DNA of 64,000 nt, taken from positions 538,919-602,918 of the forward strand of contig OX437086.1 of NCBI GenBank assembly GCA_949299565.1, in the 5' to 3' direction. A program made the translations under genes and the position numbers. The notes beneath the pieces are model-generated. The model worked only from the letters and a program-made list of their open reading frames with translations. It made no database searches and was not told the DNA's origin. Shown piece after piece: positions 28,302 to 42,625 of this stretch. Numbering within the stretch: position 1 is the stretch's first letter; every line of letters begins with the position of its first letter. The stretch comes from an uncultured Bacillota bacterium. GTDB taxonomy: Bacteria; Bacillota_I; Bacilli_A; RFN20; CAG-826.

Positions 28302-28376
28302 GGGGCTTTAGCTCAGAGGGAGAGCATCTGCTTTGCAAGCAGAGGGTCGGGGGTTCGAGTCCCCTAAGCTCCACCA
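28302..28376 (+). tRNA. tRNA-Ala (anticodon TGC)
   Basis: A 75-base cloverleaf with encoded CCA. Acceptor GGGGCTT pairs with AAGCTCC. The anticodon stem TCTGC/GCAGA holds loop TTTGCAA, anticodon TGC. T-loop TTCGAGT. Confidence 0.97.
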
Positions 28377-28384
28377 GAGCAAAT

Positions 28385-28461
28385 GGCTGAGTAGCCCAGT
28401 TGGTCAGAGCGAGCGGCTCATACCCGCTATGTCGAGGGTTCGAATCCCCCCTCAGCCACCA
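28385..28461 (+). tRNA. tRNA-Met, elongator type (anticodon CAT)
   Basis: A 77-base cloverleaf eight bases after tRNA-Ala. Acceptor GGCTGAG pairs with CTCAGCC, so position 1-72 is paired, unlike an initiator. Anticodon loop CTCATAC. A CAT anticodon can also mark tRNA-Ile2 (lysidine), but the body resembles elongator tRNA-Met and a separate tRNA-Ile2-like gene exists at 40016. Confidence 0.9.
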
Positions 28462-35579: not shown

Positions 35580-37838
35580 TTAAGCTAATTTAGAGATAAA
35601 AATGCCGCCGGTTAAATCTTTTGCCAACCTTATTTCGATATTATCTTTCGTATATATTTCAGCGCCCGGCAAATCCGGAGTTAAATCTAATTCATAGCCT
35701 TGTTTTGTTAAGATATCTTTGTAGTTCGCATAATATTCATCGTCATTCACTGTTTCTGAAGATGAGGAAATAGTTATCGTGTCGTACAGAAGCGTTGATT
35801 CGAATTGGCAATAAGTCTCCTCGTTATAAAGATAGGGGATGGTTGTAGCGACTTCTTCTCCGAATAAACTGACAAGTTTCTCGTGAATTTCCAGCGATTC
35901 ATCCTTCCAAGAAGTAGGCTCAACGAAATCAGTCATCTGTTCTATTTTCGTCAATATTTCTTGAGGGATTTCAAGATTTTCATAACGATATTCAACGATT
36001 TCGCTTCCTTGTTGGAATAAGCCATCATCATAATCGTAGCTGATTTGCGTGATGTGCTGATCATCCACTGTCATTTCGAAAGTATCTATTAATAAATTGT
36101 TCCCCTCGTTTCCTAAGATTAAGGAGTCAGAGACACTTTTTAGAACCAAAGGGTTCAGAGTATAAGTTGTAGTGTCGATTTTATTGAAGATATTTGTAGA
36201 GACGTGCATTCCTACAAAATCTGATAAGAGACCATCCGCTTTAAGATAGCCATTTTCTTTTGCTACTCCGTTTTTGTCTATCAGGAAGCGCTGAACTCCG
36301 TCAGTTTCTTTCTTATATCCGGTCACATAGGAACTGACGGTGCCTGAGAAAGTTAATTCCTTTTGCTCAAATATCAACAAATCATCGACTAAGTAAGTAT
36401 TCTTTTCTCTTTCATTCGTTCTTGTGTCATATGAATTGGCAATGAAATTTTCGTTGCTGTTTAAATGATTTATCTTATCTTGTAATTCAAAATTAGCGTC
36501 CTCTAGAGGCATCAATGTCGGTATTTTCCGATCAGAAACTAGTGTTGAGACGATTTGAATCTTGAAATAATCTATTGTGGCGCCATTTTGAACGCCCATT
36601 TCAGGGAAGGTTGCGGTTAGTTCAAGAGCGTCCTCCTCAATCGTTAAAAATAAACTCTCTGGTTGACTATTAACGTCGATATAGGAAAAGTTTTTATAAA
36701 TTTGTTCACCATTAAAGCCAAAATATTGATATTGATTATCTTGACTGTTCGTTGAACGAAAAGCGTTTAGATCGTTCAGCAATAAGTTATAAGCGAGAGG
36801 GTATTCTTCTTCAAAGAGATAATATTCGCCGATTGGCATTGTCGCGACTTGGTTTAAAGCGTTGATTCCCTCTTTTAAAACTTTACCGTTGCCGTTTTTG
36901 AAATATTCTTCGTTACCGCCCTCGACAGTGTGCACTCTAGATGAACTTCTATCGTAACTAAACGAATCGATAAGAGTTTTATCGCCGGTTGTGGAAGATG
37001 ATATATAGATTTGACTATCTACTGAAATAACATCGTTATCATCTATTAAATTCAGCTTAACGATTTTCTCGCTTGATAATGGAAATTCAGGAATTTCGAA
37101 ATCGGCGATATATTCATCGCATGCAGCGATTGCGGTTTCGCCGATATTAAAGATGGTTCCGCTAGCGTCAACGACATCAACATATTCAAAAGAGTCATAA
37201 TCGATGGTTTGTAGGGCAAACGAAAATGAATCAATGTCCGTGCTTTCAAGTCTAACTCTTGTGAAAGTGCCGTTTTCAGCATCTTCGTAATAACCTAACG
37301 TATTGGCCAAACTGTTGATTAGATTCTTATTGTCCGAATAGTAGTGGCCATCTTCTCCTTCTAGAGTAGAAGGAACAGCCTTAAGGTTCGCTAGATAATT
37401 AAATGACTGGCATGAAACTATTTTTTCTTCATGAGGATAGGCTAAAGTGAACTTATCCTCGGAATCAAAATAATAGTTATAGACTAGAGTGTCTCCTATC
37501 GATGAATCGAAAGATTCGAGGTTGATATACCCTAAATTTGTTTCGGAAAAATAAATGTAGTTTTTTGTATAGTAGGAGACGTAACTTTGGCCTTGATAGC
37601 TATATTCGAGAGTGTAGTTAGAGCTTTCTTTAATCCTTTTTAAAGCTTCAACGATTCGTTCTTCTTCAGTTAAGGAGACGGATGAACTAGAAGAAGAACT
37701 AGAACTCTCACTAGAAGCGTTTGAAGAAGAGCTGGATGAAATGGATGAAGACGAAGACGCTGCTTGAGATGAATCAAGAGCGCCTCCGCAACTCGCTAAT
37801 AAGAAAATTGGCAAAAGCAGAGGAACTGTTTTCTTCAT
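35580..37838 (-). CDS. Large lipoprotein of unknown function (752 aa)
   Basis: A lipoprotein signal peptide ends LLASC (Cys-17), followed by a serine-rich linker (about 24-55: SSSSSSSS-type). The rest is a long beta-rich, Tyr/Asp-rich extracellular region with no recognised domain. It is three bases downstream of the second lipoprotein gene on the same strand, and its ribosome binding site must lie inside that gene. The pair is probably one operon. Confidence 0.82.
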   Translation of the reverse strand: MKKTVPLLLPIFLLASCGGALDSSQAASSSSSISSSSSSNASSESSSSSSSSSVSLTEEERIVEALKRIKESSNYTLEYSYQGQSYVSYYTKNYIYFSETNLGYINLESFDSSIGDTLVYNYYFDSEDKFTLAYPHEEKIVSCQSFNYLANLKAVPSTLEGEDGHYYSDNKNLINSLANTLGYYEDAENGTFTRVRLESTDIDSFSFALQTIDYDSFEYVDVVDASGTIFNIGETAIAACDEYIADFEIPEFPLSSEKIVKLNLIDDNDVISVDSQIYISSSTTGDKTLIDSFSYDRSSSRVHTVEGGNEEYFKNGNGKVLKEGINALNQVATMPIGEYYLFEEEYPLAYNLLLNDLNAFRSTNSQDNQYQYFGFNGEQIYKNFSYIDVNSQPESLFLTIEEDALELTATFPEMGVQNGATIDYFKIQIVSTLVSDRKIPTLMPLEDANFELQDKINHLNSNENFIANSYDTRTNEREKNTYLVDDLLIFEQKELTFSGTVSSYVTGYKKETDGVQRFLIDKNGVAKENGYLKADGLLSDFVGMHVSTNIFNKIDTTTYTLNPLVLKSVSDSLILGNEGNNLLIDTFEMTVDDQHITQISYDYDDGLFQQGSEIVEYRYENLEIPQEILTKIEQMTDFVEPTSWKDESLEIHEKLVSLFGEEVATTIPYLYNEETYCQFESTLLYDTITISSSSETVNDDEYYANYKDILTKQGYELDLTPDLPGAEIYTKDNIEIRLAKDLTGGIFISKLA

Positions 37839-37841
37839 ACA

Positions 37842-39425
37842 TTACTGCAACTCGGCAGGCAAAACGTTAAATGAAAGACCAACGCCAGAGAAGAAAGAAT
37901 TGTAGCCATTGAAGACTTCCATATAGTATCCGTTGTGCAAATTGAAAATTAAAAGATTTACCTCATCATAAGGCATGATATCCCAACTATCTAGATAAGG
38001 CTGGAGTTCTTCTCTTGTGAATTTTGTAAATTCGGTATTCATCAATTCTGCAAGGTAAGATTGGATAATGCCATCAGCCCTATTGGATGGCACATCTTCC
38101 GATATGAGGTCTAAGTAATCGGTGTCTTGATCAACGATTGACCAAGTGTATCCGGTATTAAAGTAAGGAATTTCAATCTCTGTTCCTAAAAGAGTTTCTA
38201 TTGCTTCTAAGATACTAGGATCTTGGCTTGTCCAATCTTCTTTTACGACATAGTTATCGAAATCAACTTGAATTTCTGTTGAACCGATATTTTTAAATAC
38301 GAATGCATACTCTTCCGATGTAATCGTCAGTTCGTCATTAGCGATAGAGAAGATGAGCGCGCTATTGGTTAAATAGTCGCAGCCAACTAATTCGAAAGAA
38401 GCGTCGACATCTGCTATCTCAGCTAAGGGCGTGTAGCCGTTTGAAGTTTCTTTTAGCACGCGTCCATCAACTTCAAAATCAGCTTGTAAATTAAGATAAT
38501 CATCTTCAACGGTGGAACTCAATGTAGCCTCCGTTTCATCGCTAGAAATTGTGAGGACGAGATAGCCGGTTTCTTGTTTTAAATATCCTCTTCTGTCTTC
38601 TTTAAAATATAATCGGTCATCCATCGATTGAACCGTTTGAATGATTTCATTATTTTCTTTGATTTCTAAGGTGAAATTCTGTTCTTTTAATTTTGTCGTC
38701 AGTTCGTTGAATGAATTAGAGAATTCGCTTTCAGCAGGGATTTCGATTTTCTCTTCGCGTTCGTCGCTTTTTGCGCTGAAAGTTGTGTCTAAAGTCAAAG
38801 TGATGCCATTACTAACATAGCGAGCATTATAAGTTAGGAGATTGTTTTCTCTTGAGAAACTAGCTTCGACAATGGTATCTAAAGCGCCCGTTAAAGCCCC
38901 GGATAATTGGTAATTGAGAATCATCAAATCGTCGAGATATGTATCGACAGCAATTTCGTATGTTTTATTTTCAGTAATTTGAAGATCGAAATGAGAAAGA
39001 ACATTAGTCAAGTAGTTGAAATCAGCGACGTCTTCAGAAGAAATTGTCGCTTTTTTTGTTAATGCTTTCTTGACGATTTTGTCATTTTCTTTTTCGTAGT
39101 ACTGCGTTCTAAAAACCTCGCCGTCGCTGGATATTGCATACATAGTGAGGTAATCATCAGCTAAAAATGTTTGATACTCATTCGAGAGGACGTCCGTGCT
39201 TCCCTCTTCTTGCGTTGAGACAATAGTCCTGGCGTTGAAGGAAGATTCGTAATCTTTTAAAAGATCGGTAGCCGGAAGAGAGGAAGAAGTGTTTTCTGTG
39301 CTTGATTCGCTTGATGTGCTGGATTCACTCGATTGATGCGAGGAAGATGTGGTGGATGAGCCGGTTTCTGCGCAAGAAACTAACGGCAAAACAATTAACA
39401 ACGGAAGTAGGATTTTTGTTTTCAT
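37842..39425 (-). CDS. Lipoprotein of unknown function (527 aa)
   Basis: Signal peptide ending VLPLVSC (Cys-18) and a Ser/Thr-rich linker (about 24-50). AAGAGGA lies about seven bases before ATG. The mature part has repeated beta segments and resembles the downstream lipoprotein in style (for example TFLADDYLTMYAISSDGE), but no domain is recognised. Its leader sequence is repeated at 39563. First gene of the pair. Confidence 0.82.
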   Translation of the reverse strand: MKTKILLPLLIVLPLVSCAETGSSTTSSSHQSSESSTSSESSTENTSSSLPATDLLKDYESSFNARTIVSTQEEGSTDVLSNEYQTFLADDYLTMYAISSDGEVFRTQYYEKENDKIVKKALTKKATISSEDVADFNYLTNVLSHFDLQITENKTYEIAVDTYLDDLMILNYQLSGALTGALDTIVEASFSRENNLLTYNARYVSNGITLTLDTTFSAKSDEREEKIEIPAESEFSNSFNELTTKLKEQNFTLEIKENNEIIQTVQSMDDRLYFKEDRRGYLKQETGYLVLTISSDETEATLSSTVEDDYLNLQADFEVDGRVLKETSNGYTPLAEIADVDASFELVGCDYLTNSALIFSIANDELTITSEEYAFVFKNIGSTEIQVDFDNYVVKEDWTSQDPSILEAIETLLGTEIEIPYFNTGYTWSIVDQDTDYLDLISEDVPSNRADGIIQSYLAELMNTEFTKFTREELQPYLDSWDIMPYDEVNLLIFNLHNGYYMEVFNGYNSFFSGVGLSFNVLPAELQ

Positions 39426-39911: not shown

Positions 39912-40003
39912 TGGCGGAGGCATAGGGATTCGAACCCTAGCCGGAGTATGACCCCGCTTCCGGTTTTCAAGACCGGTCCCTTCAACCACTTGGGTATGCC
40001 TCC
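39912..40003 (-). tRNA. tRNA-Ser (anticodon TGA)
   Basis: A 92-base class II tRNA with encoded CCA and long variable arm. Acceptor GGAGGCA pairs with TGCCTCC. Anticodon stem CCGGT/ACCGG holds loop CTTGAAA, anticodon TGA. Confidence 0.96.
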
Positions 40004-40015
40004 GTTTCAAATACG

Positions 40016-40091
40016 TGGTGGACCATGTAGGATTTGAACCTACGACCTAGCTCTTATAAGGGGCCCGCTCTAACCTCTGAGCTAATGGTCC
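40016..40091 (-). tRNA. tRNA-Ile with anticodon TAT (UAU) on a tRNA-Ile2-like body
   Basis: A 76-base cloverleaf with encoded CCA. Acceptor GGACCAT pairs with ATGGTCC; the D arm is GCTC/GAGC; the T arm is GTAGG/CCTAC. The loop CTTATAA (positions 32-38) puts anticodon TAT after T33. The anticodon stem GGCCC/GAGCT has one G-U pair and one C-A mismatch at 30-40. The acceptor, D and T arms closely resemble the minor Bacillus tRNA-Ile2, which normally carries CAT with lysidine. A second reading (ATA, Tyr) is unlikely because it needs unmodified A34. Cotranscribed with tRNA-Ser. Confidence 0.85.
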
Positions 40092-42548: not shown

Positions 42549-42625
42549 CGCGGGGTAGAGCAGCCTGGTAGCTCGTCAGGCCCATAACCTGAAGGCCGGT
42601 GGTTCAAATCCATCCCCCGCAACCA
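42549..42625 (+). tRNA. tRNA-fMet, initiator (anticodon CAT)
   Basis: 77 bases with encoded CCA. The acceptor begins with C1 opposite A72 (unpaired), then GCGGGG/CCCCGC, the hallmark of the initiator. Anticodon loop CCCATAA. T-loop TTCAAAT. Confidence 0.95.

Follow-up and report, generated by a model that had tools for sequence, protein, structure and literature searches.

A UAU isoleucine tRNA and a retained, altered TilS homologue in two genera of small-genome Bacilli

The tRNA-Ile(UAU) gene and AUA decoding

The window, a stretch of 64,000 nucleotides from a Bacilli genome, carries a tRNA-Ile(UAU) gene at 40016..40091 (−). ARAGORN calls the gene as tRNA-Ile(tat), with its anticodon TAT (U34 A35 U36) at 40056..40058 (−). 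Set out in segments, the gene reads GGACCAT, TA, GCTC..GAGC, G, GGCCC, CTTATAA, GAGCT, AGGTC, GTAGG, TTCAAAT, CCTAC, ATGGTCC, A and CCA. With Rfam model RF00005 it scores 65.9 bits, where the gathering score is 29, and the UAU-bearing tRNA-Ile described in the initial annotation is thus a real tRNA. The anticodon stem, GGCCC/GAGCT, contains a single mismatch, C30–A40 (C30 at 40062, A40 at 40052), which brackets the loop (40052..40062, −). This C–A mismatch, likewise noted initially, was confirmed. Of 40 related TAT genes, 8 have it, within two types of stem sequence: one in G052, G072, G080, G082 and G180, the other in G196 and G205. Because it recurs in relatives, the mismatch is not a sequencing error but a trait common to some members. 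An artefact or pseudogene was ruled out by the good covariance score and the clade-wide conservation of the gene.

The source genome is a single closed contig of 1,061,998 bases (1.06 Mb), is 99.98% complete and has 47 tRNA genes. All 47 were read, and the isoleucine tRNAs among them are tRNA-Ile(GAU) and tRNA-Ile(UAU). Only two genes have a CAT anticodon, those for elongator tRNA-Met(CAU) at 28385-28461 (+) and initiator tRNA-Met(CAU) at 42549..42625 (+), and tRNA-Ile2(CAU) is absent from the 47 tRNAs of this closed genome. Therefore, tRNA-Ile(UAU) must read AUA and is the sole tRNA of the genome to do so; the proposal that AUA is read by UAU in place of CAU holds. The codon is in use, occurring 83 times in 34 open reading frames of the window (8.1% of Ile codons). 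We infer that the ribosome tolerates U34 and that tRNA-Ile(UAU) does not read AUG. Beside the tRNA gene and its neighbor, tRNA-Ser(UGA), two adjoining large Ser-rich putative lipoproteins of 752 and 527 aa occupy 35580-39425 (−).

Distribution and ancestry of the UAU tRNA and the IleRS change

Pattern scans covered 80 genomes of the order: 30 of the source genus (g1), 28 of a second genus (g5) and 22 of other genera and families. A TAT gene was detected in 20 of 30 g1 and 21 of 28 g5 genomes (41/58), while none of these 58 showed an Ile2(CAT) gene by pattern; the remaining 17, which are drafts or have divergent genes, showed neither. Among the 22 other genomes, 13 have Ile2(CAT), mostly in the same Ala-Met-Ile-Ser cluster, one has TAT (G075) and the rest show neither. 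The TAT gene of G075, a 67% complete assembly of another family in 140 contigs, is probably contamination. This gene (L171/L224) is nearly identical to the g5 gene. Relatives with CAT at this gene, which the initial annotation had counted as contrary evidence, therefore exist in other genera but not in g1 or g5, and their distribution dates the switch without refuting it.

In the 394 class genomes covered, only g1 and g5 have TAT genes of this form. Among bacteria at large, a TAT tRNA-Ile gene is no rarity, being present in at least 115 contig stretches, with many Patescibacteria and Planctomycetota among the matches listed. The uncultured Bacilli bacterium isolate Reindeer_2_mag_150 (L066) has the same TAT tRNA as G166/G243. 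In one subclade (L244, L240 and L238, from G154, G192 and G195), the acceptor identity of the TAT tRNA-Ile has been swapped, the stem being CCTCCC/GGGAGG (C1–G72) and not GG.CC. Two Lachnospiraceae contigs (L116, L125) have a TAT tRNA-Ile without encoded CCA in phage-like mixed tRNA arrays. In the genes compared, GC3 is 0.58-0.63 in the switched clade versus 0.23 outside it, and AUA makes up 0.08-0.10 versus 0.20 of Ile codons. The higher GC3 and rarer AUA may have made a change of AUA reader less costly.

Gene order indicates where the tRNA came from. Relatives have tRNA-Ala(TGC)-Met-Ile2(CAT)-Ser(TGA), and the switched clade has (Ala-Met-)Ile(TAT)-Ser(TGA). In the source genome, Ile(TAT) is still paired with tRNA-Ser(UGA) at 39912..40003 (−), the ancestral downstream neighbor of tRNA-Ile2; the other half of the cluster, tRNA-Ala(UGC) and elongator tRNA-Met(CAU) at 28302..28461 (+), lies 12 kb away. 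Alternatively, a tRNA-Ile1(GAU) copy could have given rise to the UAU tRNA, in the way that B. subtilis suppressors lacking tilS recruit tRNA-Ile1. This origin is possible but unlikely: G26, the variable loop AGGTC and the D arm are nearer to the genome's own Ile1 than to relatives' Ile2, whereas the place of the gene is that of Ile2, after tRNA-Met and before tRNA-Ser, and its acceptor GGACCA and C32 are Ile2-like. Overall identity does not decide, reaching at best 0.78 to relatives' Ile2(CAT) and 0.76 to its own Ile1(GAT), in a comparison that disregards a false ARAGORN call of 'Ile1' in G024. Gene order is stronger evidence for an Ile2 origin than sequence identity. For the tRNA-Ile2 body claimed in the initial annotation, support from the sequence is thus only partial: gene order, acceptor and C32 favor it, whereas overall identity is indecisive and the D arm is nearer to Ile1.

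The switch is accompanied by a change in IleRS. Across 41 aligned IleRS proteins, one of them from E. coli, the site equivalent to E. coli W905 holds Arg in 20/20 g1/g5 proteins, that of the source genome included, and Trp in 20/20 proteins of unswitched genera. A TAT gene was seen directly in 16 of the 20 genomes with Arg, and an Ile2(CAT) gene in 12 of the 20 with Trp; the others were assigned by genus. As g1 and g5 form one clade, this concordance counts as one event. An IleRS match in G068 (L329) has an in-frame TGA, reflecting an assembly error or a broken gene. Taniguchi et al. are said to have described, in 2013, Arg865 as the key M. mobile IleRS residue, equivalent to E. coli Trp905. 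A check of IleRS, suggested at the outset, thus found the M. mobile-type Trp-to-Arg change in the source genome. According to PMC4014445, UAU recognition in M. mobile depends on IleRS changes. Judged by the alignment, the g1/g5 event matches this event known elsewhere, and the Arg-type IleRS is predicted to charge tRNA-Ile(UAU).

A retained and altered TilS homologue

The initial annotation pointed to M. mobile, in which UAU replaced lysidine with loss of tilS. Loss does not apply to the source genome, which encodes a full-length TilS homologue of 418 aa (C1:180563-181819; TIGR02432, 121.5 bits versus a cut-off of 93.6). Its locus has the ancestral order pth-mfd-S4-tilS-ftsH-dusB, where the outermost genes are what we take, from their translations, to be pth and dusB. 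The combination that had been named as speaking against the switch, tilS plus a normal tRNA-Ile2(CAT), is therefore only half present, since the CAT gene is absent. A second PF01171 gene (C1:620043) was rejected as TilS; it is TtcA-like, scoring 172.6 bits with the TtcA model, whose cut-off it does not reach. This TtcA-like PP-loop protein (369 aa; L048:985-2094 (−), about 619.5-620.6 kb of G000:C1) has ~130 residues outside the match to the TtcA model.

The homologue is kept in 46 of 58 g1/g5 genomes, and its sequence has drifted. Scores to the TilS N-domain model are 134-174 bits in unswitched genera versus 84-129 bits in g1/g5, with no overlap. As a reference, we used 21 TilS proteins of unswitched genera (Ile2(CAT) directly seen in 13), which share 23 invariant residues. 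All 29 aligned TilS proteins of the switched clade have lost 2-9 of these. The source protein has replaced five (T120N, K156R, N176K, R183G and N184S), among them the RN of the RNxIR motif. In the PP-loop, 24/29 switched-clade proteins have Thr or Asn in place of Ser, and 6 have Glu or Ala in place of Asp. The source protein retains the PP-loop S.GPDS and exceeds the TilS cut-off, so it may still act as an enzyme. The form SYGPDS was dismissed as a sign of an inactive TilS, since S-x-G-x-D-S occurs in unswitched relatives too, where the second position is F, Y, H, N, M or A.

The same switched-clade proteins that vary in the catalytic loop hardly vary in the C-part motifs GAEDR and EYH. In TilS of unswitched members of the family, the N-domain has 27 columns conserved at ≥95% and the C-part has 6; in the switched clade, the counts are 25 and 41. 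This rise is partly due to the younger age of the clade (mean identity 0.47 versus 0.36). The conserved C-terminal motifs are LDFx.GAEDR, DYP.T.R and F.EYH.S. By a counting method that is saturated for distant pairs, tilS has a dN/dS of 0.03-0.22 in close pairs, like the adjoining mfd and ftsH. The matched TilS regions of the 46 tilS-keeping g1/g5 genomes contain no stops, and each genome has a long open frame. The tilS gene in g1/g5 is under purifying selection.

Other lineages have dispensed with the gene. In the eight tilS-less genomes inspected (G070, G113, G136, G139, G145, G147, G158 and G160), S4 is followed directly by ftsH, and tilS has therefore been cleanly deleted. Mapped on a quick tree built from parts of Mfd and FtsH, in which some branches are weak, its presence and absence require three changes. 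The TAT gene is present and tilS absent in G070, G139, G145, G158 and G160; AUA decoding in the clade is therefore independent of TilS. Together, the distribution suggests that the anticodon and IleRS changed first and that TilS loss came later.

Several roles can be considered for the retained protein. It may have been kept as a regulator of ftsH, in the manner of the B. subtilis TilS-HprT activator of ftsH, an activity that has been described (PMC8152036). Although tilS stands directly before ftsH in the source genome and its relatives, this role seems doubtful: HprT was not found in the source genome or in the TilS-keeping G052, G082, G131, G083 and G164, and tilS-less lineages retain ftsH at the same place. 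The wider search gave no TIGR01203 match at E 1e-10 in the source genome (G000) and about a dozen relatives, and purine salvage seems patchy in the family. Alternatively, the protein may still modify a tRNA, either U34 of tRNA-Ile(UAU) or another, with changed chemistry. The HxxDD, RxxRY and RPL motifs kept in nearly all g1/g5 proteins would fit such an activity, but it is improbable given that the PP-loop Ser, Asp and Gly and the RN motif have been lost in varying ways and that at least three lineages decode AUA without TilS. Neutral decay, in which TilS has been useless since the switch with its deletion merely pending, would account for active-site residues lost differently across lineages and for repeated clean deletions, but is equally improbable against the low dN/dS matching that of the neighboring genes, the open frames wherever tilS is kept and the nearly invariant C-part motifs.

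Most likely, the retained TilS no longer makes lysidine and serves another, dispensable function; it persists after its substrate has gone, probably in another role. That it was turned in the two genera into a different PP-loop protein, its active site eroded and its C-terminal part presenting a newly conserved surface, with a role other than lysidine formation and not needed for AUA decoding, we consider an even bet.

Proposed switch and comparison with known systems

We propose that, in the ancestor of the two small-genome Bacilli genera, the AUA tRNA changed its anticodon from CAU to UAU. The anticodon-reading Trp of IleRS (E. coli W905) would have become Arg, allowing tRNA-Ile(UAU) to be charged directly with Ile and to read AUA without lysidine. 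This switch of anticodon and IleRS would have released TilS from its essential task. Several lineages deleted tilS exactly from the mfd-S4-tilS-ftsH locus. Most, the source included, have a protein derived from TilS that has drifted at catalytic and substrate-contact positions and is strongly conserved in its C-part. We hold this explanation as a whole, from the switch to the deletion of TilS in some lineages and its altered retention in most, with high confidence.

The clade provides a natural series for the abandonment of an 'essential' tRNA modification, consisting of relatives with CAU, TilS and Trp-IleRS, switched genomes with an altered TilS, and sisters with tilS deleted. Its orphan TilS can moreover be tested for a new role. 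The findings suggest that a gene annotated as tilS is no proof of lysidine decoding, and that the M. mobile Trp-to-Arg solution evolved again in another lineage. A literature search of papers available without subscription returned no report of a UAU switch in these Bacilli or of TilS retained after such a switch.

Compared with the lysidine synthetase TilS (TIGR02432; PDB 3a2k, 1wy5 and 1ni5), the source protein is a full-length homologue at the ancestral mfd-S4-tilS-ftsH locus, but its genome lacks the tRNA-Ile2(CAU) substrate, and it has replaced 5 of the 23 residues that are invariant in unswitched relatives. The B. subtilis TilS-HprT activator (PMC8152036) shares the position of tilS immediately upstream of ftsH and may share a non-tRNA role of TilS, but involves HprT, which was not found in the source genome. 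In B. subtilis, a tilS deletion suppressor changes tRNA-Ile1 from GAU to UAU (Fabret 2011, as cited in PMC3711424). There, as in g1/g5, a UAU tRNA-Ile makes TilS dispensable, whereas the g1/g5 switch is natural, clade-wide, located in the Ile2 slot and coupled to the IleRS change. PMC4014445, PMC3711424 and PMC4013482 describe tRNA-Ile(UAU) and loss of tilS in M. mobile and three hemoplasmas. Like M. mobile, the source genome has an AUA tRNA with UAU instead of CAU, no tRNA-Ile2(CAU) and an IleRS in which Arg stands at the E. coli W905 position, as reported for M. mobile. Unlike M. mobile and the hemoplasmas, g1 and g5 belong to a separate Bacilli lineage, and most members retain a tilS homologue whose active site is altered and whose C-part is conserved. 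The tRNA/IleRS switch is thus of a known kind in a new lineage; what is new is that TilS has been kept in altered form.
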